From Pseudotabrizicola algicola (lineage in GTDB: Bacteria > Pseudomonadota > Alphaproteobacteria > Rhodobacterales > Rhodobacteraceae), in assembly GCF_010915705.1 (NCBI RefSeq), contig NZ_JAAIKE010000001.1:744001-808000 (forward strand): 64,000 bases of DNA, written 5' to 3'. The first letter of the stretch is position 1. Each line of letters begins with the position of its first letter. The notes beneath the pieces are model-generated. The model was not told the origin of the DNA and made no database searches. It saw only the letters and a program-made list of their open reading frames with translations. The position numbers and the translations under genes were made by a program. Below, one piece after another: positions 1 to 62,076 of the stretch.

Positions 1-1
1 G

Positions 2-634
2 GTCAGCGCCGCACCCGAAGGCGGCTGGCAGGTGGAACTCAACCGCTCTACCCTGCCGCGCGTGGTGATCCGTGATGACGAGGCAAAGCGCCTCGGCGAC
101 ATCGCCGAACCGCGCCGCGCAGATGCCGGTGGATACATTGCCGAAAGGCTCTCGGTGGCGCGCTGGCTGGCGCGCGCGGTGGACCATCGCAACCGCACCG
201 TGCTGCGGATCGGCGAAGAAATCCTGCGCCGTCAGGGCGATTTTCTGACCCACGGGCCAGAGCATCTGCGCCCGATGATCCTGAAAGAGATCGCCGAAAA
301 GGCCGGGGTGCACGAAAGCACTGTCAGCCGTGTGACAACCGGCATCTTGATGGCAACGCCGCACGGCACCTTCCCGCTGAAGCATTTCTTCACTGCCGCC
401 CTGCCCAGCCGCGATGATACCGGCGGATCGGCCGGCGCGGTCCGTCACCGCATCGAGCGGCTGATCAAGGCCGAACCTGCGGGCACACCGCTCAGCGATG
501 ATCAACTGGTTCAGTTGATGGAGGCGGAAGGGGTTTCGGTCGCGCGCAGAACGGTGGCGAAGTATCGCGATCAACTCAGCATCCCGCCCTCTTCGGTGCG
601 GCGCAGACAGGCGATCTTGTCAGGGCGGGTGTAA
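2..634 (+). CDS. rpoN: RNA polymerase sigma-54 factor RpoN, C-terminal part
   Basis: The gene enters from outside the window, so only about 210 C-terminal residues are visible. They hold the sigma-54 DNA-binding region: a helix-turn-helix (HESTVSRVTTG, about bases 311-343) and the RpoN box ARRTVAKYR (about 542-568), which contacts the -24 promoter element. Sigma-54 directs RNA polymerase to GG/GC promoters and needs an AAA+ activator to melt DNA. The gene converges on a flagellar block whose three units start at sigma-54-type promoters. This suggests a flagella-dedicated paralogue like R. sphaeroides RpoN2, but the missing N-terminus prevents distinguishing it from a nitrogen-fixation or general copy. 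Confidence 0.93.
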   Translation, partial: VSAAPEGGWQVELNRSTLPRVVIRDDEAKRLGDIAEPRRADAGGYIAERLSVARWLARAVDHRNRTVLRIGEEILRRQGDFLTHGPEHLRPMILKEIAEKAGVHESTVSRVTTGILMATPHGTFPLKHFFTAALPSRDDTGGSAGAVRHRIERLIKAEPAGTPLSDDQLVQLMEAEGVSVARRTVAKYRDQLSIPPSSVRRRQAILSGRV

Positions 635-657
635 CCCGCAACCTGCGCACGCCAGCA

Positions 658-712
658 GTCATGTCCATAGAAAGGCCCGGCAAAGCTTGCCGGGCCTTTC
701 TATGGACATGAC
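658..712. terminator. Bidirectional terminator, 26-bp perfect inverted repeat
   Basis: The arms at 658-683 and 687-712 are exact reverse complements with a 3-base loop. The stem contains AAAGGCCCGGCAA facing TTGCCGGGCCTTT. It sits between the convergent rpoN and the minus-strand gene ending at 730, so it would stop transcription from both sides. Confidence 0.85.
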
Positions 713-729
713 GCAGAGGCGCGAGTGCC

Positions 730-1422
730 TCACCCTGCGGTTTGGGCTTGACTTGCTGCGGGCAGCGGATCGAAGCGGAAACGTGCGTTGGGCCGGATCG
801 TCTGCCATGTCTGCACCGCTTCACGCTCGCTCTGCGCTGCGATAACGCCCACGCGGTAAAACCCTGCCGCGCTGCGCGAGGCCCTGATGTGGCCGGCTCC
901 CCCGCGCCAAAGATGCACACCCGCTGCAACCCAAAGGACAAGAACCACGGGCAAGCCTGCGGGCAAAGCCACGGCCAAGCCGGCAACCAGCGTTGCAAGC
1001 AAGGTCCACAGGCGCTGCTGCGCCAGCCACAACGCCGGAACCAACAGCGCAAAAAGCGAAGGTCGCACCGCAAAGATGTCATGGGTGCCATCCGCGTCGA
1101 CAACCACTTCCCAATTGTCGAGCAGCGCCGGTGAAAACGCCTTGAACCCGAGCCCTTCGGGCAGCGGCACTTGATCCCATTGCCCAAGGTCAAGACGATC
1201 GGCCAGCACTGTCCAGATCGCATCCTGCCGTGCAAAACTCAGGGCGACCAGCCCCGAGCTTGCGGCAAGCTCGGCCTTGAGCTTGTCGATACCCCCGGTC
1301 CAAGGCCGCCCCCCGACCCCGACCAGAACATCGCCCGACTTCAGGCCGATGGTATGGCCCAGATCGCTGGTGCGGCAGCGCCCCAGGCACAGGGTCATGC
1401 GTGCAGTTGAATGAACCGACAT
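730..1422 (-). CDS. Hypothetical membrane protein with PDZ-like N-terminus
   Basis: 230 residues. The N-terminal about 90 residues resemble a PDZ-like fold (GLKSGDVLVGVGGRPW followed by a helix). The centre has a hydrophobic stretch of two or three membrane segments, and the C-terminal about 50 residues are soluble. The ATG at 1422 is chosen because AAGGAA lies about 7 bases upstream; a TTG start would add 11 residues. It follows the MotF-like gene by 29 bases on the same strand and is probably cotranscribed from the sigma-54 promoter at 2450-2466. I know no function. The position suggests an accessory to the flagellar motor, which is inference only. Confidence 0.7.
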   Translation of the reverse strand: MSVHSTARMTLCLGRCRTSDLGHTIGLKSGDVLVGVGGRPWTGGIDKLKAELAASSGLVALSFARQDAIWTVLADRLDLGQWDQVPLPEGLGFKAFSPALLDNWEVVVDADGTHDIFAVRPSLFALLVPALWLAQQRLWTLLATLVAGLAVALPAGLPVVLVLWVAAGVHLWRGGAGHIRASRSAAGFYRVGVIAAQSEREAVQTWQTIRPNARFRFDPLPAASQAQTAG

Positions 1423-1451
1423 AAGGGATTCCTTGGGGACCAGAGCAGCGT

Positions 1452-2147
1452 TCAAGGATACTTGAACGGATTGGGAACCTGCACCGCCGCCGCAGGCCGC
1501 GGCTTCGACTTCGGGGCTGGCTTTGGCGCGGGTTTGGGCACGGCGACAGGTGCCGGAGCCTCATGCACGATGACCGGAGCGGGCTTGGCGACGGGCGCGG
1601 CAATGCGCTCGGAAAGCCGCATCTGGGTTTCGGCGAGCGCTTCGATCATGTCGGTGCGCAGCTTGTCGATCTGTTCGGCCAGGCCGACCGCCTCCTCTGA
1701 CGGATCGGGTTTGGCCAACATCTGTTCAAGCTGCGCGTCCAGCTTTGCAACTTGTGCAGATACGCTTTCCTGAAGCGCGGTGTTCTCTGCCTCCAGCCCG
1801 GCGATGGCTAGGTCGAGCCGATCCAGCGCGCCGTTCATTTCGGCCAGACGCTCGACAAAGGCAGCGGCGGCGGCGGCTTGCACCTCTCCGGCCTCGCGCA
1901 GATCCGCTACGCTGCGAAGGACAAGCAAGCCGCCAAGCACCAGCACGGCAACCGAGGCGCCCCCCGCCGCCAGTGCCATCCAGCCGCTTCGACGGGCCAC
2001 GCGTTCCATCGATTTCGCGGCATCGGAGCGGGCCAGCAAAACCGCTTCGGTTTCATGTGCGGCATCGGTTGCCGCGGCGGCGGCGTCCAGCGCTTTGGTG
2101 ATCGCCTCTTGAACGGCGTCGTCGCGAGAGGATTTCTTTTCAGTCAT
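1452..2147 (-). CDS. MotF-like bitopic membrane protein, flagellar motor accessory
   Basis: 231 residues: an Ala-rich, charged N-terminal helix (1-50), a single membrane segment at about 56-77, a coiled-coil region at about 85-165, and a Pro/Lys/Ala-rich tail ending in NPFKYP. R. sphaeroides MotF, needed for rotation of the Fla1 flagellum, is described as a bitopic protein of about this size encoded close to flhB. The architecture and position match, but I could not align the sequences. It overlaps the preceding 90-codon gene by ATGA, so the two are translationally coupled. The ATG at 2147 is preferred over a longer open frame because it starts at this overlap. It could instead be an unrelated scaffold protein. 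Confidence 0.65.
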   Translation of the reverse strand: MTEKKSSRDDAVQEAITKALDAAAAATDAAHETEAVLLARSDAAKSMERVARRSGWMALAAGGASVAVLVLGGLLVLRSVADLREAGEVQAAAAAAFVERLAEMNGALDRLDLAIAGLEAENTALQESVSAQVAKLDAQLEQMLAKPDPSEEAVGLAEQIDKLRTDMIEALAETQMRLSERIAAPVAKPAPVIVHEAPAPVAVPKPAPKPAPKSKPRPAAAVQVPNPFKYP

Positions 2148-2416
2148 GGGTTCTGTTTCCGCACCTGACGCAAGGGGTTGGGGCCGCGCCGGAGGCGGCG
2201 TTCGCGATACCACCCGACCATGCGCGCGATGGGAAAGCGGATGGCGGCAAGGCAGGACAGAACCGCGCAGATCGCCAAAGCGCCTTGCCGCAGCGGTGTT
2301 TCGGCAGGATCGGCCGCCGCGAACGCCAGCCCGAGCCCGAAGACCAGAAAGGTAAAGGTACTGATGCGCTGTCCGGCTTGGCAGATGCGGCATGGCTGTG
2401 GGGCGGCAGATGGCAC
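2144..2416 (-). CDS. Small two-helix membrane protein
   Basis: 90 residues, with two hydrophobic segments (about residues 20-35 and 45-60) and a basic C-terminus. The start is GTG at 2416 with GGGAG about 8 bases upstream. It is the first gene after the sigma-54 promoter at 2450-2466 and overlaps the MotF-like gene by four bases, so it probably belongs to the flagellar regulon. I do not recognise the family. There are two Cys residues near the N-terminus. Confidence 0.6.
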   Translation of the reverse strand: MPSAAPQPCRICQAGQRISTFTFLVFGLGLAFAAADPAETPLRQGALAICAVLSCLAAIRFPIARMVGWYRERRLRRGPNPLRQVRKQNP

Positions 2417-2449
2417 GGCAGACTCTCCCGAAAGATGGCAGGAACAGGA

Positions 2450-2466
2450 TGCAAGTATCGTGCCGA
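2450..2466 (-). promoter_or_regulatory. Sigma-54 promoter of the MotF-like unit
   Basis: The minus strand reads CGGCAC-GATAC-TTGCA, preceded by T. GG at -24 and GC at -12 have the correct spacing, with one departure from TGGCAC-N5-TTGCW. It lies between the flhB stop (2468) and the GTG start at 2416, giving a leader of about 20 bases. Confidence 0.7.
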
Positions 2467-2467
2467 G

Positions 2468-3613
2468 TTATCGGGCGCGGTGGCCGAGGGCATCGAATTG
2501 AAGGTCTTCGGGCAGGTCGATCTCGGGCAAATCCTCGCGCAGACCGCGTTCGATCCGCCAGATATGCGCAAGAACGGCGGCAACCGCGCCGTAAAGCCCG
2601 ACATGGATCTGGCTGCCGATTTCGCCCGTGAAGTAAAGCGCACGCGCCAAGGGCGGCAGGCCCAGAATGGGAACTCCGGCCTTGCGCGCCCGTTCGATCA
2701 CCTGCCGCGCCATCTGGTCGCGGCCCGTGGCAATGATGGTTGGCGCTTCATCCACGCCGGCGGTATAGCGCACCGCCACCGCGAAATGTGTCGGGTTGGT
2801 GATGACTGCCGAGGCCGTCGGGACATGTGCCAAGGCTGCGCGCTCGCGCGATCCGCGCTGGCTCGCCTCGATCTGCATCCGGCGCAAACGCCCCTTCACC
2901 TCGGGCGAGCCGTTGTCCTCGCGACTCTCGCGTTTCACCTCGTCAAAGGTCATCCGCAGCGATTGCTGCATCTTGTGCGATTGCCAAAGCAGATCGGCAA
3001 TACCGATCAGCCCCAGAACCAGCGTCATCGCCGCAAACAGCCGGAATGCAAGATTGGCGAACAATTTGGCCGCATCGCCCGTGGGCATATCGCCCAGCAC
3101 GACGATTTCGGGCATCGCATCATAGACCACCCAGAATGTCACCGACAGCAATAGCCCGACCTTGGCCAAGGCCTTCCCCAGTTCCACCAGCGCGGTCAGC
3201 GACACCATGCGGCCAAGGCCCTTCATCGGGTCCAGCTTTTCGGGCTTGAACGCATATCCCTTGGCCGACCAGCCAAGCCCTCCCATCGCGGCTTGCGCAA
3301 GGATCGCCGCCAGCATCACCGGAACGGCCACCGCGAGCGCCGCCGCCATCACCTCGAACCCGGCAGTGCCAAGCGCGGAAAACAAGGCCGCATCCAGCGT
3401 CTCGGGGGGGCCCAGCCGCAAGTGGCTTGACCATCGGGCCGCAACATAAGTTCCGGCAAGCGGGCTTGCCGCGATCACCAGAGTGCCTGCCGCCATGGTG
3501 ACAAAGACCATCATCTCTTTGGAGGTCAGCACCCGCCCTTCGCGGCGCGCCTCGTCAAGACGCTTTTGCGTAGGCTCGTGACTGCGTTCGGCGCCGTCAT
3601 CATTCTCTGCCAT
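2468..3613 (-). CDS. flhB: Flagellar export switch protein FlhB
   Basis: 381 residues, normal for the family. It has a charged N-terminus, four membrane segments between about 35 and 210, and a cytoplasmic domain with the self-cleavage motif NPTH at 273-276. Cleavage there switches the flagellar type III export apparatus from rod/hook to filament substrates. It is the last export gene of the fliK-to-flhB unit, one base after the fliR stop. The order fliP-fliQ-fliR-flhB is the canonical export-gate arrangement. No anomaly was seen. Confidence 0.97.
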   Translation of the reverse strand: MAENDDGAERSHEPTQKRLDEARREGRVLTSKEMMVFVTMAAGTLVIAASPLAGTYVAARWSSHLRLGPPETLDAALFSALGTAGFEVMAAALAVAVPVMLAAILAQAAMGGLGWSAKGYAFKPEKLDPMKGLGRMVSLTALVELGKALAKVGLLLSVTFWVVYDAMPEIVVLGDMPTGDAAKLFANLAFRLFAAMTLVLGLIGIADLLWQSHKMQQSLRMTFDEVKRESREDNGSPEVKGRLRRMQIEASQRGSRERAALAHVPTASAVITNPTHFAVAVRYTAGVDEAPTIIATGRDQMARQVIERARKAGVPILGLPPLARALYFTGEIGSQIHVGLYGAVAAVLAHIWRIERGLREDLPEIDLPEDLQFDALGHRAR

Positions 3614-3614
3614 G

Positions 3615-4427
3615 TCAGGGGCCTGTCACAACGGGAGCAAGCATATTGCCGATCAGCCCCGCTCCGGCTTCGACCACGCCGACCAGCCCGTCAAACATTT
3701 GCGGCGTCGTCAGCCAGAGCAGCACGAAAGCGGCAAGGATCGCCAGCGGGAAACCCACCGAAAAGAGGTTCAGCTGCGGCGCCGAGCGCGTGACGACCCC
3801 GACAGCGAGATTCAGCACCAGTAGGCCCGCCACCACCGGCATCATCAGGGCCGAGGCCAGCGCGAACATGGTGCCGCCTGCCGTAACGCCCGCCGTGATG
3901 AGCACACCCAACGCGGGCGTCGCTCCGGGCGGATAGGTGGCGTAGCTGTCCAGCAAGATGCGCAGCGCCACCAGATGTCCGTCCGTCTCCAGAAAGACGA
4001 ACATCAATGCAAGTCCGAAAATCTGCGCGACCACAGGGCTTTGCCCACCTGCGGTCGGATCGACCTGCATGGCAAAGCCCAGTCCGGCGGCATTGGCGAT
4101 CCTGTCGCCCGCCAGACCCGCCGCAGCGAAAAGGATGGTCAGGACCAACCCTGCCGTCAGACCGACTGCAATTTCCGCCAGCATAAGCGGCACCGCCGAA
4201 AGCCGCGCCAACCCGTCGGCATCGGGCAGGCCGAGGGCGCTTGCTACCGGCAAGGTCAGGCAAACCGCCGCAACGATGCGGATTGGCAGCGGCACAAAGC
4301 GCCCGCCGAACACAGGAGAGGCCACCAGAAAAGAGCCGATCCGCAACATGGCGAAGAAGAACGATGCCGCGGGATCGGCCAGTCGGGCCAGATCCATACC
4401 CGGCAGCGTAAAGATCGCGCCCTCCAT
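3615..4427 (-). CDS. fliR: Flagellar export gate protein FliR
   Basis: 270 residues, strongly hydrophobic with about six membrane segments, as expected for FliR of the FliP5-FliQ4-FliR1 export gate. The ATG at 4427 is preferred because it begins 4 bases after the fliQ stop; a TTG at 4457 would overlap fliQ by 26 bases and add ten polar residues. The motif GFAMQVDPTAG in the centre is typical of FliR. It is followed directly by flhB. Confidence 0.95.
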   Translation of the reverse strand: MEGAIFTLPGMDLARLADPAASFFFAMLRIGSFLVASPVFGGRFVPLPIRIVAAVCLTLPVASALGLPDADGLARLSAVPLMLAEIAVGLTAGLVLTILFAAAGLAGDRIANAAGLGFAMQVDPTAGGQSPVVAQIFGLALMFVFLETDGHLVALRILLDSYATYPPGATPALGVLITAGVTAGGTMFALASALMMPVVAGLLVLNLAVGVVTRSAPQLNLFSVGFPLAILAAFVLLWLTTPQMFDGLVGVVEAGAGLIGNMLAPVVTGP

Positions 4428-4431
4428 CTCG

Positions 4432-4698
4432 CTACCGGATCGCGCGGATGGTTTCAAAGACGAAGCCGAAGTAATCGGTCATGGTCACCATCATGTAGCC
4501 AGAGGTCAGGCCCATGGTGACCATAACGATCACCAGTTTAGGCACAAAGCTCAGCGTGTTTTCGCTGATCGAGGTGGCCGCCTGAATGACACCGATCACA
4601 AGGCCGACGCCAAGGGCCACCACAAGGATAGGCCCTGCCGTCCAGAGGATCGTCCAATAGGCGAGTTGCAACTGGGCAATGCCGCTTCCGAATTCCAT
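4432..4698 (-). CDS. fliQ: Flagellar export gate protein FliQ
   Basis: 88 residues with two membrane segments, the standard size for FliQ. The family pattern GVIQAATSISENTLSFVPK is present between the helices. Its start overlaps the fliP stop by one base. It forms part of the export gate in the basal body membrane. Confidence 0.96.
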   Translation of the reverse strand: MEFGSGIAQLQLAYWTILWTAGPILVVALGVGLVIGVIQAATSISENTLSFVPKLVIVMVTMGLTSGYMMVTMTDYFGFVFETIRAIR

Positions 4699-5447
4699 CA
4701 GCCAGCGCCCCCGGCCGCCATGCCATACCCCGCCGCGAGCGATCCCACCGTCAAGGCCCAGCCGTCAACCAGCACGAACAGCAAAAGCTTGAAGGGCAAG
4801 GCCACAAGCACAGGCGAAACCATCATCATGCCCAAGGCCATGAGGATCGAGGCGATCACGATGTCGATGACCAGAAACGGCAGGAACAGCAGAAAGCCGA
4901 TCTGGAACGCAGTCTTGAGCTCGGATGTCATGAAGGCTGGCAACAGCACGCGAAACGGCACGGCTTCGGTGTCCGCATAGGGGGCATCGCCCGCAAGGTC
5001 GGCAAACATCGCCAGATCGTTCTGGCGGGTGTTCTCGATCATGAAGCCCTTCATGATGTCGCCCGCGATCTTCAACGCCTCTTCCTGCGGCATGGAGCCA
5101 TCCAGCGCCGGACCAAGCGCCTGGTCATATACATTGGTCAAGACCGGTTGCATCACAAAAAAGGTGAGAAACATCGCAAGCGCGATCAGCACCTGATTTG
5201 GGGGGGTTTGCTGGGTTCCCATCGCCTGTCGCAAGATGGACAGAACAATGATGATGCGCGTGAACGCAGTCATGCCGAGCAGCAGGGACGGCAGAACCGT
5301 CAGCGCTGTCATCAGAACAAGAATTTGCAGCGAGAGCGACCAGCTGGCCCCCGATTGCGTCTCGGTCAGGGTCAGCGCCGGAATGCCTTGCGCCTGTGCA
5401 AAGCCTGGCAGCAGGACGATCAGCGCAACCGCAAGCAGGCGGATCAT
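4698..5447 (-). CDS. fliP: Flagellar export gate protein FliP
   Basis: 249 residues. An N-terminal signal peptide (about 1-20, ending FAQAQ) is followed by FliP hallmarks: FTRIIIVLSILRQAMGTQQ and TPPNQVL, then three more membrane segments including a Met-rich one. The ATG at 5447 overlaps the fliO stop (ATGA), which fixes this start against a longer open frame. FliP is the main subunit of the flagellar export pore. Confidence 0.97.
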   Translation of the reverse strand: MIRLLAVALIVLLPGFAQAQGIPALTLTETQSGASWSLSLQILVLMTALTVLPSLLLGMTAFTRIIIVLSILRQAMGTQQTPPNQVLIALAMFLTFFVMQPVLTNVYDQALGPALDGSMPQEEALKIAGDIMKGFMIENTRQNDLAMFADLAGDAPYADTEAVPFRVLLPAFMTSELKTAFQIGFLLFLPFLVIDIVIASILMALGMMMVSPVLVALPFKLLLFVLVDGWALTVGSLAAGYGMAAGGAG

Positions 5448-5779
5448 TTGCGGACCTCGGGCGGCAGGCACATGCCATCGCATCCCGCGTCTACCGCCTG
5501 GCAGATGCCACCGCATTCCGAACGTGCCGAACGCAGCGGCTTCAGCACCGGGTTCGCACCCTTGAGCTTGAGCAACAGAAAGTCCTGCCCGTCCACCGTG
5601 AGGATCACGGCACGGTCTGCCGGCCCCAAGGCCGCCGTTTCGAGCACGCGCAGGCGGCGACCTCGTCCGAAATGGTCGTTCAGCTCTTGCCGGTTGCGCA
5701 GGACAAGCGCCCATAAAAGGCCAAGTCCGGCCAGAAAGGCCGAGAGGATAATGATCTGGTCAACGCGTAGCAGGTCCAT
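5444..5779 (-). CDS. fliO: Flagellar biosynthesis protein FliO
   Basis: 111 residues, with a single N-terminal membrane helix (about 8-27) followed by a cytoplasmic domain with the FliO-type pattern LGPADRAVILTVDGQDFLLL. FliO helps assemble the FliP ring. The C-terminus is Cys-rich (four Cys in the last 25 residues), which is unusual. The start has AAGGA about 9 bases upstream. It sits between fliN and fliP, where FliO is expected. Confidence 0.88.
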   Translation of the reverse strand: MDLLRVDQIIILSAFLAGLGLLWALVLRNRQELNDHFGRGRRLRVLETAALGPADRAVILTVDGQDFLLLKLKGANPVLKPLRSARSECGGICQAVDAGCDGMCLPPEVRK

Positions 5780-53528: not shown

Positions 53529-54176
53529 ATGAAGTTGATTCTTCTTTTTATGTCACTGCTTGCAGTTGTGGGCGCGGCCGCCACCTTTGGCCCTGAGTAT
53601 GACGCGGCTTTTTTCGCCCGCAGCCCGGAGGAATCTGCCTTTGATGCTCTGGTCACTCCGGCGAACCTGCCTGATCTTCCCCTGAGCAGCCGGAGCATGC
53701 GCGAGCTTTTTGAAACCTGTGCAGCAGTGCAGCAAGGTCTTATCTACGCGTTCCAGCCGCCGGAAACCCAAGGAGACGTTGACAGGAGCTGTGACAGTCT
53801 GGCCCGCAAGGCGCTGGCGCGCAGCCCGACCTATGGTGCGGCCCATACGATCGTGATGCTTTCGGCGCGCGACGATGCCGCCGTAACAGAGTCCCTGATC
53901 CTTTCACAAAGCACCTCACCCCGAGAGTCCTGGCATGCCAAACTTCGTTTGCGCAAGGGCATCCGCCTTTATGGGAAGGCCACCCCCGCCTTGGACGCTG
54001 CCCTGGAGGCGGATATCGGGTTCATGGTTCAGACCCGCGCAGGCCGCGCATGGCTTGCCGCGCTTTATCAAAGCAATCCCACAGCACGCCCCGTTCTGGT
54101 TGCGGTGATCAACCGGCGCCCGAACGAGGAACAAGTCTCTTTCCTGCGGGAGGTGCGCAATCTTGGTCAAAATTAA
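53529..54176 (+). CDS. Exported protein of the polysaccharide locus, unknown function
   Basis: 215 residues. An N-terminal hydrophobic segment (about 1-18) acts as a signal or anchor. The rest is helical with repeats of Ala and Leu, and two Cys (ETCAAVQQ, RSCDSLARK). It overlaps the Wzy-type gene by 14 bases, hence coupled. A TPR-like fold is possible but not proven. Confidence 0.7.
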   Translation: MKLILLFMSLLAVVGAAATFGPEYDAAFFARSPEESAFDALVTPANLPDLPLSSRSMRELFETCAAVQQGLIYAFQPPETQGDVDRSCDSLARKALARSPTYGAAHTIVMLSARDDAAVTESLILSQSTSPRESWHAKLRLRKGIRLYGKATPALDAALEADIGFMVQTRAGRAWLAALYQSNPTARPVLVAVINRRPNEEQVSFLREVRNLGQN

Positions 54177-55662
54177 TCGTCCCCCCCGTGAGAAACCGGC
54201 TTCCGTGCCCGCCGCCACCATTCGGGACGGGGCAGCCCCGACCCGCCGCCGCGCGCGCGGATCACAACGCTATGGCCGCCTGAACACTCTGACGGCGCGG
54301 CTTCTGGTGCTCCTTGTGCTGGTGAGTGCCATTCCGGTTGCGTCAAACCGTCCCGCTTGGTGGCTGATCTGGACGTTCCTGCTCGGCTTGGGCGCGCTGG
54401 CCTATCTTCTGCGGGCGCAAATGCTGATGGGTCGGCAAAGACCGCTGCAGACAAACCAGTTCACGCTTTTCTTCACCGTCGCGCTTTTGGTTCCCGCCTT
54501 TGCGCTGCTCCAGTCGCTCCCGCTGGCGCAACTCGTGCCTGTTGCCTGGCAGGCGCTGCCCTCTGCCGTGGCGGGTCTGGGGCCATTGGCAAGTCTTTCG
54601 GTCATGCCCGACGCTTCGCTCTTGGCGGCAATCCGGGCCGTTGGCTATCTGGTGTTCCTTATGCTGGTGATCGAGGTTGGCACCCAGCCAGAGCGGACAC
54701 ATACGCTTGGCCTGATCCTGATGCTGGGTATCCTTCTCCATGCGGTGTTCGGGTTGGTCGCCTTGCGCCTGCTTGGCGACTATTCGATCTGGGGGGAAAA
54801 GACTGTTTATCTTGGCATGCTCACGGGCACTTTCGTCAATCGCAACTCGATTGCGACCTTCCTTGGCTTCGGTCTGGTTCTGGCTTTGGCCTATGCTCTG
54901 GAACGTGGCCACCGCGCTGCCAATGCAGAGCGTGATCGGGGATACACGGCCATTTTCACGCCTGCACGGCTCGAGATCATCGGCCTTTGGCTTGCGGTAG
55001 CCGTCCTGGCGATTGCCATTTTGCTGACCCAGTCGCGCATGGGCGTGGCCGCCACCGTGCTGGGGGCTTTCGTCACATTTCTTGCGCTGCGCATCACCTT
55101 TCGGGTTCCGTTGCGCCGTATCCTGATCGAGGTTGGCATAGGCCTTGTCGCAATGCTTGTCGTGCTTGTCCCTGCGGTCGGCGACGGTGTGCTTGAACGC
55201 GCTCTGTTCACTTTTGTGGAATCGACTGATCGCGTCAGCCTTTATGTGCAGACGTGGGGAATGATCCTTGAGCGTCCGCTGATCGGCTTCGGCTATGATG
55301 CTTTTGCGCCCGCCTTCGAGCTTTATCGCGATGAGCCGCTGGTCAACCAGAACTTCGCCGACCTTGCCCACAACACCTATCTGACGCTTTGGGTAGAACA
55401 GGGGTTCATCATCGGCAGCATACCGATGCTGCTGATCGGCTGGTCAGCAGTGATGATCTTGCAGCGGTTGCGCGCGGCCGAGGGCGATATGGCGGTGAAT
55501 GGTGCCGCGCTTGGCGTCATCGTGCTGGGAGCCATGCACTCGCTGGTGGATTTCAGCCTCGAGATTCCGGCCAATGTCTACTGCTTCCTGCTGATCGTGG
55601 GTCTGGCCATCGCCCGGCCCCGCAAGGTGCAAACCGCTTCGCCTGACGGTGAGGGGGCATGA
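54163..55662 (+). CDS. O-antigen ligase / Wzy-type polysaccharide polymerase
   Basis: 499 residues, about twelve membrane helices. A basic N-terminus precedes the first helix (about 44). The large periplasmic loop contains GFGYDAFAPAFELYRDEP and AHNTYLTLWVEQG, typical of the Wzy_C/O-antigen ligase family. The start is TTG at 54163 with GGGAGG 9 bases upstream, inside the preceding gene. It would polymerise or ligate repeat units in the periplasm. Confidence 0.9.
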   Translation: MVKINRPPREKPASVPAATIRDGAAPTRRRARGSQRYGRLNTLTARLLVLLVLVSAIPVASNRPAWWLIWTFLLGLGALAYLLRAQMLMGRQRPLQTNQFTLFFTVALLVPAFALLQSLPLAQLVPVAWQALPSAVAGLGPLASLSVMPDASLLAAIRAVGYLVFLMLVIEVGTQPERTHTLGLILMLGILLHAVFGLVALRLLGDYSIWGEKTVYLGMLTGTFVNRNSIATFLGFGLVLALAYALERGHRAANAERDRGYTAIFTPARLEIIGLWLAVAVLAIAILLTQSRMGVAATVLGAFVTFLALRITFRVPLRRILIEVGIGLVAMLVVLVPAVGDGVLERALFTFVESTDRVSLYVQTWGMILERPLIGFGYDAFAPAFELYRDEPLVNQNFADLAHNTYLTLWVEQGFIIGSIPMLLIGWSAVMILQRLRAAEGDMAVNGAALGVIVLGAMHSLVDFSLEIPANVYCFLLIVGLAIARPRKVQTASPDGEGA

Positions 55663-56483
55663 CGGTGCTGGGGCGGCTGCTGCGGGGTTTTGGCCAAAGG
55701 AAGGCGCAAGACAGCGCCCATCCCACCGCCGAGGTGCTGGTGCTCGACCCGTTCGACGGGCCGGTTTACGCGGTGGGTGATGTCCACGGCTGCCTGCCGC
55801 TTTACCGCGAGGTCGAAGATGCGATCCTGCGCGATGCAGAGCAGTTCGAGCAACCACCTACGCTTGTCTTGCTGGGTGACGTGATCGACCGCGGTCCGCA
55901 CAGCGCCGCCATGCTTGACCATTTGCTGCGCCCGCTTCCGGCGCCCGCGCGAAGACTGTGCCTGTTGGGCAACCATGAATCGATGATGCTCGCCTTCCTC
56001 GCTTCTCCGCGCGCGAACCTGCGTTGGCTGCGTTTTGGCGGTCATGAAACGCTCGCCTCTTATGGCATGACCTTTGACGTTGATGAGCTAGAAGCCATGC
56101 CAGAGCGCAGGCTGGTGCAGACCATCGCCGCCCACGTGCCGGAGGCCCATCTGCGGCTTTTGCGCAGCCTGCTGCCTGCCTTGCAGGTTGGCCCCTATCT
56201 TTTGGCCCATGCAGGCGCTGACGCAAGCGCACCGCTCACCGCACAGCCGCTGCAAAGCCTGATCTGGGGCAGCGCGGGGCTGGTTGCCCCCTCGGGGCTG
56301 ACCTTGATCCACGGTCATTACATCACCGCCGAACCGGAGGTCCGCAGCACAAGCATCGGCATTGACACCGGGGCCTATGCCACAGGGCGTTTGACCGCCC
56401 TACGCCTGCTGGATGGGCAGAAGCCGGCGTTCATGAGCACAAGTTCGGATGATTTGACCAATAATCTGGCGGTTTTTGCATAG
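55659..56483 (+). CDS. PPP-type metallophosphatase
   Basis: 274 residues. It carries all calcineurin-like phosphoesterase motifs: GDVHG, GDVIDRGP, GNHE and HAGAD, HGH. The size and order are those of lambda-phosphatase-like Ser/Thr/Tyr phosphatases. The start overlaps the polymerase stop (ATGA). No low-molecular-weight Wzb phosphatase is found next to the tyrosine kinase downstream, so this enzyme may fill that role. Confidence 0.9.
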   Translation: MTVLGRLLRGFGQRKAQDSAHPTAEVLVLDPFDGPVYAVGDVHGCLPLYREVEDAILRDAEQFEQPPTLVLLGDVIDRGPHSAAMLDHLLRPLPAPARRLCLLGNHESMMLAFLASPRANLRWLRFGGHETLASYGMTFDVDELEAMPERRLVQTIAAHVPEAHLRLLRSLLPALQVGPYLLAHAGADASAPLTAQPLQSLIWGSAGLVAPSGLTLIHGHYITAEPEVRSTSIGIDTGAYATGRLTALRLLDGQKPAFMSTSSDDLTNNLAVFA

Positions 56484-56614
56484 ATGGCCGCGAAAAGCGG
56501 CAATTGCGCCCGGAACCCTTTCAACAACCCAAAGGCGATGTTAACAACTCGGGCAATCCGACATCGCTCTGACAGAGCCCCGAACCGAGTCCATTTCCCA
56601 ACAAGGTGATTTCT

Positions 56615-58816
56615 TTGCAGTCTTCCGAAATTGACCTCAAGGAGCTGATTGGCATATTACGCCGACAGAGCCGCTTGATTTTGATCACTTTTTTCGTGTT
56701 CCTCATTCCGGCTGTCCTCTATCTGATGCTGGCCACTCCGATGTATCGGGCCACGGCCCTGATCTCGATCGATGCCGGGGGTTCCAACCTGCTCGACCCG
56801 GGCAGCATTGAAAACAGCCAGAGTGCCATCCTCAACTCGCGCGTGGATGGCGAGGTCGAGGTGCTGCGGGCCGAGGCAACCGTCATGGCGGTGGTGCAGG
56901 CCGGCGATCTGATCAGCGATCCCGAATTTGGCCCGCGTCTTGGGCTGACGGAGAAAATCACCATCGCTTTGGGCATGGAGTCAGCGGGTGACACCTTGCG
57001 CCAGGCGGTCGGCCTGCGTCCGGCTGATCCACCGTCAAGCGAGCGTCTGGTCAGCAATACGGTCCAGAAACTCAGCGGGGCGACCGAAATCCGGCGTCGC
57101 GGCCTGACCTATCTGATCTCGGTGGGCGTGCGGTCCGAAAGCCCGCAACGCGCAGCAGATATCGCCAATCTCTACGTCGCAACCTACATTGACCGGCAGG
57201 TGCTGACCAAGAGCGCCTCTATCATCGCGGCGCGCGATGTGTTGCGCAGCCAGACAGAAACCGCCCGTATCGAACTGGCCCGTCTGGAAGATGCGCTGAA
57301 CAGCTTTATCGACGACAACCTTGCCCGGCTGGAAGCCGAGAGCAACAACGAGAGCATTTCCGCCCTGCGGCGACAGCTGGAGGCGGCACAATCGAGCAAG
57401 GTCGAAAGCGTCAGTGTGCTGGCCGCATCGCGGGAAGCCGCGGCGCGCAATGACTGGGCGTCGGCTGCGGTCACGCTTGGCGATGCCGCGCTGGAGCAAC
57501 TGGCAAACGAGCGGGAGGCCCTTGCCAGACGCCTGAGCGGCGAAACAGCTGGCTCTCAAACCGCCATCGACCTGCAAAACGCGCTGTCCGATCTGGACCG
57601 CAGCCTCGGTGCAAGACTGGCCGAGGCGCAAACAAGCGTCGAGGGAGAGCTTTCCGCCCTGACCCAATCAGAAACGCTGGCGCGCGAGCAACTGCGTGAG
57701 GCCTTGCTGCAATCCAACATGTCGTCAACCGTGATCGCCGATCTGTTCAACTTGCAGCAATCGGCATCGATCGCGCGCAACCAGTATCAGCAGCTTTTGG
57801 CCCGTGTGCAGGATCTGAACGCGCTCGCTAATGTGCAGATCGCCGATGCGCGCGTCGTCTCGGAAGCTTTGCCGCCGACGTCGCCCGCCTCGCCCAACAA
57901 GCGACTCATCATCATCATGGCCCTGACAGCGGCTTTGGCGATGGGGGTCACGCTGGCCTTTCTGAACGAGTATTACATCGGGGGCGTTACTTCGACCGCG
58001 CAGCTTGCCAATGTGATTCAGGCCCGGATTCCGGTCGCCATTCCTGCGCTGCCTTCCAGTGCAAACGAGCGGATACCGGCGGATGAAATCATGGTCTCGC
58101 CGCTTTCACAGTATTCCGAGGGCTTTCGAAAACTGCGGCTGGCGGTGGATACGAACCTTCACCAAAGCCTGTCCGAGCGCGGTGTCTCGGAGGCCGAGCG
58201 GCGCAAGGCCAGGGTGGTGCTGATCTGTTCCGCTCTTCCGGGCGAGGGGAAAACCACGACCGCCATCGCGCTTGCCCGCACCTATGCCGTGTCGGGGCAG
58301 CGGACCTTGTTGATCGACTGTGACCTGCGCAAGCCTTCGGTCGAGAATTACTTCAAACTGCCGCATCAGGATGGTCTGATCGATTATCTGACCTCGCAAA
58401 AGCCCGATGCCGATCTGGTGGTGACGCCCGTGCTGGACCAGTTGTCCAATCTGGAAGTCATCACCGCCGGGTCACGCAGCACGCAGCCGACAGACCAGCT
58501 CGTGAACAGCCCGCGCTTTGCCTCGCTGCTCGAGGTCGTGCGCGAAGCCTTTGATGTGATTGTGATCGACAGCCCGCCGCTGCTGCCCGTGGTGGATACC
58601 CGCTATCTGGCACAGATGGCTGATATCGCGGTGTTGATCGTGCGCTTTTCCAACACCACCCAGGGCGAGGTGCGGGACGCTGCGCACCAGATGCAAGACG
58701 CGCTTCGGCCCGGCGTCCGGATGCTGGGTGTCTTGAACCGTCAGACAGAACGTCGCGGCAAGCGCGGGTATTACAACGGGGCCTATTCGGGCTATTACGG
58801 CGACAGCACGACGTAG
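56615..58816 (+). CDS. Polysaccharide chain-length regulator and tyrosine autokinase (Wzc/ExoP)
   Basis: 733 residues. A first membrane helix lies at about 24-46, a Wzz domain and a periplasmic coiled coil (about 185-420) with many Ala/Glu repeats follow, and a second helix is at about 430-452. The cytoplasmic BY-kinase has Walker A SALPGEGKTTT, Walker A' LLIDCDLRKPS and Walker B VIVIDSPPLLP. It ends in a Tyr cluster (RGYYNGAYSGYYGDST). The start is TTG at 56615 with AAGG 8 bases upstream; GTG at 56606 would add three residues. Confidence 0.94.
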   Translation: MQSSEIDLKELIGILRRQSRLILITFFVFLIPAVLYLMLATPMYRATALISIDAGGSNLLDPGSIENSQSAILNSRVDGEVEVLRAEATVMAVVQAGDLISDPEFGPRLGLTEKITIALGMESAGDTLRQAVGLRPADPPSSERLVSNTVQKLSGATEIRRRGLTYLISVGVRSESPQRAADIANLYVATYIDRQVLTKSASIIAARDVLRSQTETARIELARLEDALNSFIDDNLARLEAESNNESISALRRQLEAAQSSKVESVSVLAASREAAARNDWASAAVTLGDAALEQLANEREALARRLSGETAGSQTAIDLQNALSDLDRSLGARLAEAQTSVEGELSALTQSETLAREQLREALLQSNMSSTVIADLFNLQQSASIARNQYQQLLARVQDLNALANVQIADARVVSEALPPTSPASPNKRLIIIMALTAALAMGVTLAFLNEYYIGGVTSTAQLANVIQARIPVAIPALPSSANERIPADEIMVSPLSQYSEGFRKLRLAVDTNLHQSLSERGVSEAERRKARVVLICSALPGEGKTTTAIALARTYAVSGQRTLLIDCDLRKPSVENYFKLPHQDGLIDYLTSQKPDADLVVTPVLDQLSNLEVITAGSRSTQPTDQLVNSPRFASLLEVVREAFDVIVIDSPPLLPVVDTRYLAQMADIAVLIVRFSNTTQGEVRDAAHQMQDALRPGVRMLGVLNRQTERRGKRGYYNGAYSGYYGDSTT

Positions 58817-58864: not shown

Positions 58865-59224
58865 TCAGGCGGCGGGGGTTTCCTTGAACTTGATCGATTC
58901 GCCGCAGCCGCAAGCCTCGGCCACGTTGGGATTGCGGAACTTGAAACCCGCGCTCAGCAGATCGACCTCGTAATCGATCTCGGTCCCGATCAGGAACATT
59001 TGCGCCATCGGCGCGATCATCACGCGGGCGCCGTCCTGTTCAACCACCTCGTCCAGCGGATTGACCTCGGACACATAGTCCATCGTGTATTCCATCCCTG
59101 CGCAGCCGCCCTTCTTGACGCCAATGCGCAGGCCCTGACGACCTTCTTTCTGCATCAACCGAGAGATTTGACGGGCTGCCATCGGGGTCAGGGTGACGGC
59201 AGCTTTGCCGGGAATGCCAAACAT
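58865..59224 (-). CDS. A-type Fe-S carrier (IscA/SufA/ErpA family)
   Basis: 119 residues with the three conserved Cys: GGCAGMEY and ACGCGES. It carries Fe-S clusters from scaffold to target. The pattern VTLTPMAARQISRLMQ is typical of the family. It is the last gene of the minus-strand run sufT - SatD-like - DUF3307 - carrier, 26 bases after the DUF3307 gene. Confidence 0.94.
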   Translation of the reverse strand: MFGIPGKAAVTLTPMAARQISRLMQKEGRQGLRIGVKKGGCAGMEYTMDYVSEVNPLDEVVEQDGARVMIAPMAQMFLIGTEIDYEVDLLSAGFKFRNPNVAEACGCGESIKFKETPAA

Positions 59225-59250
59225 GGGTAACTCCTGTATCTTTTCCCAAT

Positions 59251-59994
59251 CTAGGGTGAAAGGTCCGGAATTCCAAGCGGCGGAACAGCGGAAAGCAGCA
59301 TCACCGTGCCAAGCGCGACCAGTATCGCCCAGCCAAAAGACGCCAAGGTGCCGATGATGACATATTCCGAAAGCCGCGCCTCTTCCTTCACGGCTCCGAA
59401 CCGCAGGACCGATTTGGCCGCAATCAGGAAACCGATGCCGCCCGGCTCTCCGGCAAGGATGAGCAGAAAGATGATTCCGCGCTCCAAAAGGCCGATGATC
59501 CGACCTCCCCCCGGCAGGCCCTCCAGCCCCACATCGCCCCAAGGCCGCATCAACAGCGCCAGGGCAAATCCGCCTGCGCGCGTGGACAGGATCGCCCCGG
59601 CCAGCACCGCAGCCGCCGCAGGCATCCAGATGGGCGCATGATCTGCCCAAAGGCCCTGCGCCCACAGACCCGGCCATAGCGTTGCCACCAGAACAAGCGT
59701 CGCCAGATGTGCCGCCTGATCCGCGACAAAGGCCATGATGCCGGAAACCCGCGCGCCGATCGCCACCTTTGCGGCATCAATGCCGAGATGGACGGCCGCC
59801 ACGCCTGCCATCACCCCAAGCGCCAGCGGGGATTGCGCCCCCAACAGCAGTGCCGAGATCAGCCCGACGGTGCCGATATGCGCCAGCATCCAACCCGCAT
59901 GGCCCTCAGCCTTGGCCTGTGCCATTCGGCCCGATTGCAAAACGAAATCGGCCAGAACATGGGCAAGGATCAGAAAGACCAGCGTTTCAGCCAT
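59251..59994 (-). CDS. DUF3307 membrane protein
   Basis: 247 residues, about six to seven membrane segments. The N-terminal motif LILAHVLADFVLQSGRMAQAK (as in LxxHxLxDFxxQ) marks the DUF3307 family. The ATG at 59994 has AGGGG 8 bases upstream, within the 3' end of the SatD-like gene, so it overlaps by 8 bases. SatD and DUF3307 genes occur together in other bacteria; function unknown. It could be the membrane effector of its partner. Confidence 0.85.
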   Translation of the reverse strand: MAETLVFLILAHVLADFVLQSGRMAQAKAEGHAGWMLAHIGTVGLISALLLGAQSPLALGVMAGVAAVHLGIDAAKVAIGARVSGIMAFVADQAAHLATLVLVATLWPGLWAQGLWADHAPIWMPAAAAVLAGAILSTRAGGFALALLMRPWGDVGLEGLPGGGRIIGLLERGIIFLLILAGEPGGIGFLIAAKSVLRFGAVKEEARLSEYVIIGTLASFGWAILVALGTVMLLSAVPPLGIPDLSP

Positions 59995-60619
59995 CAGCAT
60001 CCCCTGCGCCAAATTGCACGGCAAAGGCGTGCGTCGCCTGTTCAACCAGCGCAAAGCCTGCGGTCTGCAGACGCGCGGCAAAGGCCTGGCGCGAGATACC
60101 CACTTGCGCGGCAAGGGCATGTTGGGGGGCATAGCCGCCCTGCTCCAGCGACAATGCCACCGCCTCGGCCTGTTGCGGAGACCATCCCTGCATCTGTGTA
60201 TCAAGATAGGCCATCAAGGCATGGTGCAGCGGATCGACCCCCTGCCCGGCCAGCGCCAGCCACCGCCCATCGGGCATCGCATCGAGCGCGCGGCCAGAGC
60301 CCACGAAAGCCGTGCCACCCGCCGTGCCAAGGCTGCCGTGCTCCAGACCCGACACATCGCCCAGCCCCAGAGCCATGCGGCTGGACAGGCTTTCTCCGGC
60401 GCGAAGCCGTGCGGCCAGATAGACCATCATGGCAAGCCCCTGCCCCGCAGTGCCGATATAGAGCTGCCAGCCATCGCCGCGATAGCGGTGGAACCGTGAC
60501 GTGGCGGCCAGACGGTTGGCCGAGCTTTTGATGAGCGCCATGCAGGCATCGACCTGCGCAGCGCTGCTGCGGGTCGAAAGAACCAAATCTCCGGTCAGAA
60601 CCGCATGCAGGTGTGACAT
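59987..60619 (-). CDS. SatD-like protein: cyclase-like domain plus helix-turn-helix
   Basis: 210 residues. Residues 1-125 show an arrangement like class III nucleotidyl cyclases: Asp11 in TGDLVLST, the hairpin RYRGDGWQLYI with Asp49, then SRMALGLGDVSG and GGTAFVGSGRAL. The C-terminal part (about 150-195) looks like a helix-turn-helix (PQHALAAQVGISRQAFAARL). The family is SatD-like (named for a streptococcal acid-tolerance gene). The ATG at 60619 lacks a ribosome-binding site; the first palindrome ends 2 bases upstream. Cyclase activity is an inference from motifs only. Confidence 0.75.
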   Translation of the reverse strand: MSHLHAVLTGDLVLSTRSSAAQVDACMALIKSSANRLAATSRFHRYRGDGWQLYIGTAGQGLAMMVYLAARLRAGESLSSRMALGLGDVSGLEHGSLGTAGGTAFVGSGRALDAMPDGRWLALAGQGVDPLHHALMAYLDTQMQGWSPQQAEAVALSLEQGGYAPQHALAAQVGISRQAFAARLQTAGFALVEQATHAFAVQFGAGDADG

Positions 60620-60621
60620 GG

Positions 60622-60697
60622 GCAAGTCATACGGCTTGCAACCCCAAAAAGCAAGTCAAATGGCTTGCAAACGAAAAATGCAAGCCAAAAGGCTTGC
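60622..60697. repeat. Three 18-bp palindromic operators at 29-bp spacing
   Basis: Copies at 60622-60639 (GCAAGTCATACGGCTTGC), 60651-60668 (GCAAGTCAAATGGCTTGC) and 60680-60697 (GCAAGCCAAAAGGCTTGC). Starts are exactly 29 bases apart with 11-base spacers. The third has perfect 7-base arms, and the other two differ by one arm base. The array fills the gap between sufT and the SatD-like gene. Its likely ligand is the helix-turn-helix of that gene. Confidence 0.9.
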
Positions 60698-60727: not shown

Positions 60728-61087
60728 TTACATGAACCCGAGTTCCAGCCTTGCCTCGTCGCTCATCATTTCCATGCCCCATGGCGGATCAAAGGTCATC
60801 TGCACATCCACCTGCTTGACGCCGGGCAAAGGCTCCACCGCATCGGCCACCCAACCGGGCATCTCACCGGCCACGGGGCAACCCGGAGCCGTCAGCGTCA
60901 TCACGATGTTGACCGCGTTTTCCGCATCAATCTCGACCGTGTAGATCAGACCCAGATCAAAGATATTCACGGGGATTTCCGGGTCAAACACCGTTCTGCA
61001 GGCGTCAACGACGCTGTCGTAGAGCGGGTGGTCAGTGCTGGACGGTTTGATGAGCGGTGCGCCCTCGACTCTTGCTTCGCTGTTCAT
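60728..61087 (-). CDS. sufT: SUF Fe-S cluster assembly protein SufT (DUF59/MIP18)
   Basis: 119 residues. DUF59 motifs DPEIPVNIFDLGLIY, TLTAPGCPVAGEMP (reactive Cys) and FDPPWGMEMMSDEAR. It helps mature Fe-S proteins in the cytoplasm. A perfect TATAAT on the minus strand (61116-61121) lies about 30 bases before the ATG and may be its promoter. Downstream it is separated from the A-type carrier by the SatD/DUF3307 pair. Confidence 0.93.
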   Translation of the reverse strand: MNSEARVEGAPLIKPSSTDHPLYDSVVDACRTVFDPEIPVNIFDLGLIYTVEIDAENAVNIVMTLTAPGCPVAGEMPGWVADAVEPLPGVKQVDVQMTFDPPWGMEMMSDEARLELGFM

Positions 61088-61239: not shown

Positions 61240-62076
61240 CTAATCGCGCAACGGACGCGCTTCGGGCAGGTTGATACGCGCCACCTGCTCGGCAATAGGG
61301 TCCATAGAAAGCGGATGCAGTTCCGCCCGATGCGCCGAGGGATCGCCCAGATCCTGCCAAACGCCGCCCTTGTAAATCTCCAGCGCGGAAAATCCGGCCT
61401 TATACCCCATCTTGCGGCTGCCGGGGACCCAATAGCCCAGATAAACATAGGGCAGGCCCGCCTCACGCGCGATGGCGATGTGGTCAAGGATGATATGGGT
61501 GCCAAGCGAAAGATCGACCAGATCGGGGTCATAAAAGCTGTAGACCATCGACAAGCCGTCATCGAAAACATCCGTCAGGCAGACGGCGGCAAGCTCTTGC
61601 CCCCGCCCTTTCTGCTCCGAGGGGCGCGTGTATTCGATCACCCGACTTTTGATCGGGGTTTCCTCGATCATCGCAGCGAATTCAAAGATGTCCATATCGG
61701 CCATGCCGCCATCGGCGTGGCGGGCATCAAGATAGCGGCGGAACAGGCTGAACTGGTCTTCGGTCGCCCAGGGGCTGGTGGCATTGCGCCGCAGATGCGC
61801 CGTCCGCCGCATGATCCGGCGCTGGGTGCGGCTCGGCTGGAAGTCTGCCACCCGAATCCGGGCGGACAGACAGGCCGAACATTCCGAACAGGACGGGCGG
61901 TAGAGCACATTCTGGCTGCGGCGGAAGCCCTGCTTTGACAGCGTATCATTCAGCCGCTGCGCATGTTCCCCCTGCAGCGCGGTGAACAGCTTTCTTTCCA
62001 TCCGCCCGTCAAGGTAGGGGCAGGCCTGTGGAGCCGTCACGTAAAACTGGGGCGCGATGGGGAGCGTGTGGCGCAT
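61240..62076 (-). CDS. bpt: Aspartate/glutamate leucyltransferase Bpt
   Basis: 278 residues, arginyltransferase-like. N-terminal Cys-rich part ([21 protein letters not shown]) and C-terminal GNAT-like fold with [18 protein letters not shown]. It adds leucine to proteins starting with Asp or Glu, marking them for ClpS/ClpAP. The start at 62076 is an ATG. The gene stands alone. Confidence 0.95.

Follow-up and report, generated by a model that had tools for sequence, protein, structure and literature searches.

A SatD-like cyclase-fold protein with a helix-turn-helix is a probable regulator of its own operon, which encodes a DUF3307 membrane protein

Regulators of the PucR/CdaR type have an architecture in which a GGDEF-like domain is combined with a helix-turn-helix (HTH), while GTP cyclohydrolase III is an enzyme without an HTH. 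The name of the Pfam family SatD (PF16264) derives from satD of the sat operon of Streptococcus mutans. In the available parts of two papers, the sat locus was tied to acid tolerance or protein translocation (PMC10326533, PMC12077213). DUF3307 appears in a table row of PMC8504454, a source available in part. SatD and DUF3307 are two families without established function, and no report of SatD as a regulator was found among the matches listed in searches of the open-access literature, where the name search was swamped by other uses of the letters.

The window, that is, the whole stretch of 64,000 nucleotides from Pseudotabrizicola algicola that was analysed, contains a gene for a SatD-like protein and a gene for a DUF3307 membrane protein. 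The features of this locus were as follows:

58865 to 59224, minus strand: Fe-S_biosyn (IscA/HesB-like) gene, the downstream neighbour, identified with Pfam; a common flank of the family
59251 to 59994, minus strand: gene for the DUF3307 membrane protein, 247 aa, with the ATG start at 59994 (MAETL)
59987 to 60619, minus strand: gene for the SatD-like protein, 210 aa from the ATG; cyclase/palm fold at residues ~1-145, then a helical linker and a C-terminal HTH with the recognition helix at 177-186
60622 to 60639, no strand assigned: putative operator 1 (proximal), GCAAGCCGTATGACTTGC on the coding strand; it carries the -10-like TATGAC and lies 2 nt before the ATG
60651 to 60668, no strand assigned: putative operator 2, GCAAGCCATTTGACTTGC when read on the coding strand; together with the 2 nt that follow, its 3' end forms the -35-like TTGCTT
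60680 to 60697, no strand assigned: putative operator 3 (distal), GCAAGCCTTTTGGCTTGC on the coding strand; a palindrome at the 29-bp pitch
60728 to 61087, minus strand: FeS_assembly_P (PaaD/MIP18-like) gene, the upstream neighbour, identified with Pfam; a common flank of the family

The SatD and DUF3307 genes overlap by 8 nt, as the preliminary description had stated, with the DUF3307 start at 59994 lying inside the SatD open reading frame (ORF; 59987-60619). Only 26 nt separate the DUF3307 gene from the IscA-like gene (59224-59251), so the SatD promoter might also feed this Fe-S assembly gene. Further along, positions 54163-58816 hold what is probably an exopolysaccharide gene group, encoding an O-antigen ligase (Wzy_C), a calcineurin-like phosphoesterase and a protein of chain-length type (Wzz/GNVR/AAA). 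On the other side, an arginine-tRNA-protein transferase family gene (ATE_N, ATE_C) lies at 61243-62076 on the minus strand, where it is preceded by RDD and DUF2852 genes.

Among 61 related genomes, 12 contained a relative of SatD (7 of 16 in the genus, with the genome of the window counted), and DUF3307 adjoined SatD in all 12. Five further genomes contained short DUF3307 only (open frames of 131-155 aa), located elsewhere in the genome. A PaaD-like gene preceded SatD in 7 genus members, and its end was readable before SatD in loci L008-L012. A scan of GTDB contigs gave at least 397 confirmed SatD relatives. The best 80 of these were kept and came mostly from Rhodobacteraceae, with two Gemmatimonadota MAGs and one MAG labelled as archaeal. 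In these best 80 loci, DUF3307 was next on the same strand in 78, the other two being at contig edges, and a PaaD-like gene and an IscA-like gene were present in 69 and 71, respectively. In Rhodobacteraceae, the pair was mostly found at one chromosomal place beside two Fe-S assembly genes. A SatD match at E ≤ 1e-6 was found in 22 of 398 genomes of the phylum, and SatD was found in 7 distant plasmid records out of 72,556. Distant loci numbered 21, from 14 genomes and the 7 plasmid records (L153/L155 and L151/L154 are near-identical pairs), and a DUF3307-type frame followed SatD in all 21. The family-wide co-occurrence of SatD and DUF3307, which the preliminary description had proposed as a check, was borne out in these sets. 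At three Rhodobacteraceae loci (L121, L122 and L123), a long DUF3307 lies between the PaaD-like and IscA-like genes and SatD is missing; the DUF3307 frame abuts the PaaD-like frame in two of them and is ~100 nt away in the third. In these loci, the putative output would stand without its regulator.

The preliminary description had read the 210-residue protein as a class III cyclase-like core with a C-terminal HTH, from the motifs GDLVLST (with D11), RGDGWQ (with D49), RMALGLGDV and GGTAFVGSGRAL, all of which were found in the ORF. The structure model of the SatD-like protein was confident (pLDDT 94.9), and model and fold search agreed on a cyclase-type fold, namely, a palm fold of the class III cyclase/GGDEF/GTP-cyclohydrolase-III type (Foldseek and VIA lists). 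That reading had been made to depend on conservation of Asp11 and Asp49 in homologues. Both were retained in 79 of 79 close sequences (alignment A2, 79 rows, with L033 and L060 at contig ends left out) and in 17 of 17 diverse sequences (alignment A4), and were aligned to Ma1120. Across the 79 rows G10, D11, S15, R47, G48, D49, W51, Q52, L72, R81, G102, G109, W146, Q150 and Q178 were invariant, and RGDx[WF]Q is the signature of the N-terminal cyclase-fold domain. The C-terminal HTH also stood, with helices in the model and weak Pfam HTH matches (E 0.015 for the window protein, and E 9.1e-6 as the best among SatD relatives). There was no Pfam match of the window protein to the PucR-type HTH (HTH_30) at E ≤ 1, and HTH_30 was matched by 3 of 79 SatD sequences at E ≤ 0.1 (best 0.056). 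The C-terminal fragment of the Rv2242 regulator (9f80) was found at Foldseek rank 42, with a poor alignment (rmsd 14.8).

The name SatD, which was used in the preliminary description, was upheld in part. Twelve of the 79 aligned sequences matched PF16264 weakly at E ≤ 0.1 (best 4.3e-5), while the window protein had no match at E ≤ 1 and did not reach the curated cut-off of 29 bits. L152 matched at E 2.5e-5, and the Vibrio lentus relative reached 24.5 bits against the cut-off of 29 over residues 8-63; none of the members whose bit scores were seen was at the 29-bit cut-off. A PF16264 profile search of the genome of the window and 189 others of the class gave no match, and its controls matched nowhere either. 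NCBIfam gave nothing for the SatD-like protein.

In the window, the SatD start is preceded by three palindromes of 18 bp each, GCAAGYC-N4-GRCTTGC, which follow one another at intervals of exactly 29 bp, and the array ends 2 nt before the start codon. The interval of the preliminary description ended at 60697, the last base of this palindrome array, which it does not mention. Upstream of SatD in 81 loci, 189 CAAG-N8-CTTG sites (at most 1 mismatch) were counted versus 3.9 in mononucleotide shuffles; 65 loci had two or more sites and 8 had none. The pitch between these sites was 29 in 86 pairs and 28 in 16. When tandem palindromes were searched with no letters fixed and any pitch of 20-40 allowed, they were found in 46 of 81 upstream regions versus 10 of 1672 and 3 of 785 control windows, and two of the ten hits among the 1672 were themselves arrays in gaps between SatD and DUF3307. 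In this search, the pitch was 29 in 39 loci, 28 in 12, and 27 and 34 in one each; no tandem pair was found in 35 of the 81 regions at the strict letter-free setting. No array was found by the scripts in L072, where a GCAACC-type pair 28 nt apart was readable by eye.

Arrays with a pitch of 28 or 29 bp recurred at many SatD loci of Alpha- and Gammaproteobacteria and the two Gemmatimonadota MAGs, with half-site letters that varied. In the distant loci, an array stood before SatD in 11 of 21 versus 0.03 expected from dinucleotide shuffles, with pitches of 28 or 29 only. The half-sites included TTAGCC (in Vibrio lentus, three copies), GTAACC (in Pseudoalteromonas), ATAGCC, GTAATT, TCACAT, GCAAGC and others. 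No pair was found before SatD in the remaining 10 distant loci, one of which, L149, had a pair between SatD and DUF3307 (TCAACC..GGTTGA, pitch 28). Arrays inside the SatD-DUF3307 gap were found in 8 of the 14 gaps examined, at the strict setting in L088, L094, L095 and L149, and at a looser setting, reached by 0 to 2 of 300 shuffles, in L092 (also a control hit), L028, L056 and L083. The array can thus stand in front of either the operon or DUF3307 itself. In the other six gaps (L031, L090, L153, L155, L178 and L180), no array was found, and L090, L153, L155 and L178 had sites before SatD.

When half-site base 1 was compared with the 210 columns of SatD, the three columns with the highest scores (177, 182 and 181) all belonged to the recognition helix; column 177 scored 0.55 and the next 0.23. 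G at base 1 was accompanied by R177 in 58 of 59 rows and T by a residue other than Arg in 14 of 15 (Fisher's test 5e-13, without a correction for relatedness). This table leaves out the 5 of 79 rows without G or T as the first base, and the G of L092 in it comes from a doubtful distal site, the array of L092 being in the gap. In the gap arrays, A at base 1 was found with Q177 (L028, L056, L088, L092 and L095) or Lys (L094), and T with P177 (L083). Exceptions to the rule were L068, with T and R177 but with the Y182 typical of the T group, and L058/L066, with T and Q177, whereas other Q177 loci have A. Of the six distant arrays that could be placed by alignment A4 and were checked by eye at residue 177, L096 (A, Q), L099 and L153 (G, R) and L152 (T, T) fitted the rule, and L149 and L097/L178 broke it with T and R177. 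Half-site bases 5-7 gave no recognisable covariation signal with the HTH. On the tree, the covariation needed a minimum of 5 changes, and the tree test was powerless because there was just 1 independent pair on well-supported branches. Conserved palindromes upstream of its operon, with letters that change together with the HTH, would be expected of an autoregulator; covariation of this kind was found at half-site base 1 only, with the above exceptions.

Among the alternatives to a regulator, an active enzyme is the least improbable. SatD may act as a nucleotide cyclase or nucleotidyltransferase and so make a product that gates or activates DUF3307 in a Pycsar-like manner, with the HTH only tuning expression. 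The cyclase fold, the invariant metal aspartates, R47 and R81, the strict pairing with a membrane protein and one plasmid copy beside a Pycsar system all speak for it, and the domain with the cyclase fold may have a catalytic role instead of a sensing one. However, at column 106 of the SatD alignments, the Asn of the class III NxxxR motif was absent from the eight most frequent residues, the helix register being that of our own motif alignment, and its Arg, Arg110, was retained in just 38 of 79 close and 13 of 17 diverse sequences. The class III purine-contacting (substrate) Lys is replaced by R45, which is itself lost in distant members. Furthermore, the pair mostly occupies a single chromosomal site in Rhodobacteraceae, and the array and covariation already account for both the HTH and the pairing. 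We therefore consider an active enzyme unlikely.

The related reading of the preliminary description, a sensor and effector laid out as in Pycsar, stood as regards the cyclase fold and the tight coupling with a membrane protein, but not as regards the class III Lys and Asn, which are not conserved, or PADLOC, which matched 0 families at E ≤ 1 for the SatD-like and DUF3307 proteins. A conserved array of putative operators speaks for control of transcription rather than for such a layout. Among the neighbours of the distant loci (154 of 176 ORFs: 76 of 82 and 78 of 94), no PADLOC family matched more than one protein among the matches listed, the best 25 of 45 and 25 of 32; this covered 14 loci and had no matched control. 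The top names included several models of one kind (DpdF, BrxHI and PsyrT), which we take to be helicases. A defence reading is not supported, with one plasmid locus being suggestive: L149, positions 1-5615 of Sphingomonas insulae plasmid NZ_CP048421.1. There, SatD-DUF3307 adjoins a Pycsar effector, an E2-associated cysteine-rich protein and an adenylate/guanylate cyclase, and a TIR-domain protein lies further upstream.

Promoter-like sequence was found inside the array. In the window, it reads TTGCTT-N17-TATGAC-N6-ATG. The placement was tabulated for 59 of 81 loci, leaving out 8 with fewer than two sites and 14 with the proximal site outside -30 to -10. In these 59 loci, the centre of the proximal site read TAT at the -10 position, with A at the second -10 position in 85%. 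TA at the -10 position occurred in 34 of 59 proximal sites versus 8 of 59, 1 of 44 and 0 of 15 for sites 2, 3 and 4, respectively. The 3' end of the next site gave a TTG[CA][TA]T-like -35, 17 nt before the -10 at the 29-bp pitch. The ATG followed 17-22 nt after the first base of the proximal CAAG in 54 of 59 loci, and there was little room for a Shine-Dalgarno sequence beside the proximal site. Because of this promoter placement and the little Shine-Dalgarno room, we infer leaderless transcription, starting at the ATG, and occlusion of the promoter by the regulator.

SatD binding should repress because the promoter lies inside the array, and SatD probably acts as a repressor. That SatD activates the operon instead appears quite improbable to us: the gap arrays of L094 and L149 do have further sequence before the DUF3307 start, but the proximal sites of Rhodobacteraceae cover the -35 and -10 in the 59 tabulated loci, which is the position of a repressor.

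The Fe-S assembly genes that flank the pair raise a further alternative, in which the array belongs to another regulator, for example, an iron or Fe-S regulator such as IscR. In the available part of PMC4618611, IscR of Rhodobacteraceae binds the Iron-Rhodo-box, a 19-bp palindrome that overlaps promoters. In the genus, however, the 7 SatD-containing loci had 1-3 exact sites within 200 nt after the PaaD-like gene, whereas no exact site was found in the same 200 nt at 7 loci from the 9 genomes without SatD, although the Fe-S genes stay there and IscA follows the PaaD-like gene in 6 of these 7. Arrays were also present without Fe-S flanks in L048, L052, L149 and L152, and the half-site letters covary with the recognition helix of SatD. 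The iron/Fe-S regulon was set aside on the absence of sites in congeners lacking SatD and on the arrays lacking Fe-S flanks, and we regard it as very unlikely. Scarcely credible are palindromes acting as RNA hairpins or mobile repeats rather than operators: they are palindromic and repeated, but no Rfam match was found at gathering scores, their promoter placement suggests that they are not transcribed, the letters differ by lineage while the pitch stays, and the only other exact matches in the genome of the window were two single sites inside coding frames. With up to 2 mismatches, 151 places matched in this genome versus 118 for the reversed pattern; a regulon beyond the operon is not claimed.

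The DUF3307 protein of the window matched PF11750 over residues 7-107 (E 4.7e-17, 62.6 bits, curated cut-off 23 bits). Its model was confident (94.2) and helical, and no solved structural relative was found for it. The protein has a polar N-terminal helical core (H12, D16, Q20, H39, H69, D73, K76, D92, Q93 and H96) and a C-terminal helical domain (E171, R172, K194, S195, R198, E210 and Y211). Alignment A3 of DUF3307 leaves out fragments below 150 aa (L018, L039 and L069) and loci without DUF3307 (L033 and L060). The core residues recur in the short unlinked DUF3307 proteins too, and the SatD-linked protein of L151 is without several of them; for L186 and L190, this check of the distant loci covered the residues past the N-terminus. 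The C-terminal part (E171, R172, K194, R198, E210 and Y211) belongs to the long, SatD-linked form, and this half may be a SatD-linked module because it was the only half matched in the frames of L182 and L191. A buried polar or metal site is suggested by the core residues, and hence DUF3307 may be an intramembrane enzyme or carrier.

The DUF3307 protein also matched PHROG 2470, a phage membrane protein, at E 1.4e-14 and PHROG 6676 at E 6.8e-5. Short DUF3307 proteins do occur in phages, and a tblastn search with the DUF3307 protein of the window found no phage record. No SatD relative was found in 50,697 phage records at the sensitivity used, and none of 14 SatD pattern matches in viral contigs was confirmed. 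On these searches, a phage or mobile origin was rejected; the PHROG matches of DUF3307 run counter to a purely cellular reading.

Taken as a whole, SatD is likely to be a one-component regulator of its own operon, with a nucleotide-binding-type sensor and DUF3307 as the output. We infer that SatD itself binds the array, represses and senses a nucleotide. In this mechanism, the HTH of SatD would bind the 18-bp palindromes at the 28/29-bp pitch before its own operon or, in some loci with spaced genes, directly in front of DUF3307, and binding would set the production of the membrane protein. For most arrays of Rhodobacteraceae, the -10 would be supplied by the centre of the proximal site and the -35 by the 3' end of the next one, with the predicted start at the ATG. 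The cyclase-fold domain at the N-terminus, which bears the two aspartates and RGDx[WF]Q, would most likely bind a metal-nucleotide or a nucleotide-like ligand, and ligand binding would change the DNA binding of SatD.

A broader reading is offered only tentatively. SatD may represent a bacteria-wide class of one-component regulators with a cyclase-fold sensor that is possibly still catalytic, reading a code of 18-bp palindromes at the 28/29-bp pitch in which base 1 is read at residue 177 and the letters drift. Such a class would control a new family of membrane proteins that have a polar site within the membrane; the level of a membrane function would then be set by a nucleotide signal, and members of the class would occasionally be recruited beside defence systems. 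With the array and the pairing, SatD and DUF3307 become a testable regulator-output pair. Binding can be assayed directly on the array, which also offers a reporter and a way towards the ligand, and the covariation of HTH and operator is a natural specificity series. A cyclase-fold sensor in a DNA-binding regulator would mean that motifs alone cannot mark second-messenger synthases.

Compared with described systems, the arrays of the SatD loci set them apart from the sat locus of Streptococcus mutans, for which no operator array is mentioned in the available parts of PMC10326533 and PMC12077213. The SatD-like protein has its fold and two metal aspartates in common with class III nucleotide cyclases (Ma1120 of Mycobacterium avium and OaPAC). 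Unlike these enzymes, the SatD-like family does not conserve the transition-state Asn or the substrate Lys, and it has a fused DNA-binding HTH. The identity to GTP cyclohydrolase III (MJ0145, 2qv6) is 10%. In Pycsar, as in SatD-DUF3307, a cyclase fold is found beside a membrane protein, and one plasmid copy of SatD adjoins a Pycsar system; SatD-DUF3307 differs in having an operator array before the operon and, as the common neighbours in Rhodobacteraceae, Fe-S assembly genes rather than defence genes. Like PucR/CdaR-type regulators, the SatD-like protein joins a palm-type domain and an HTH in one chain.
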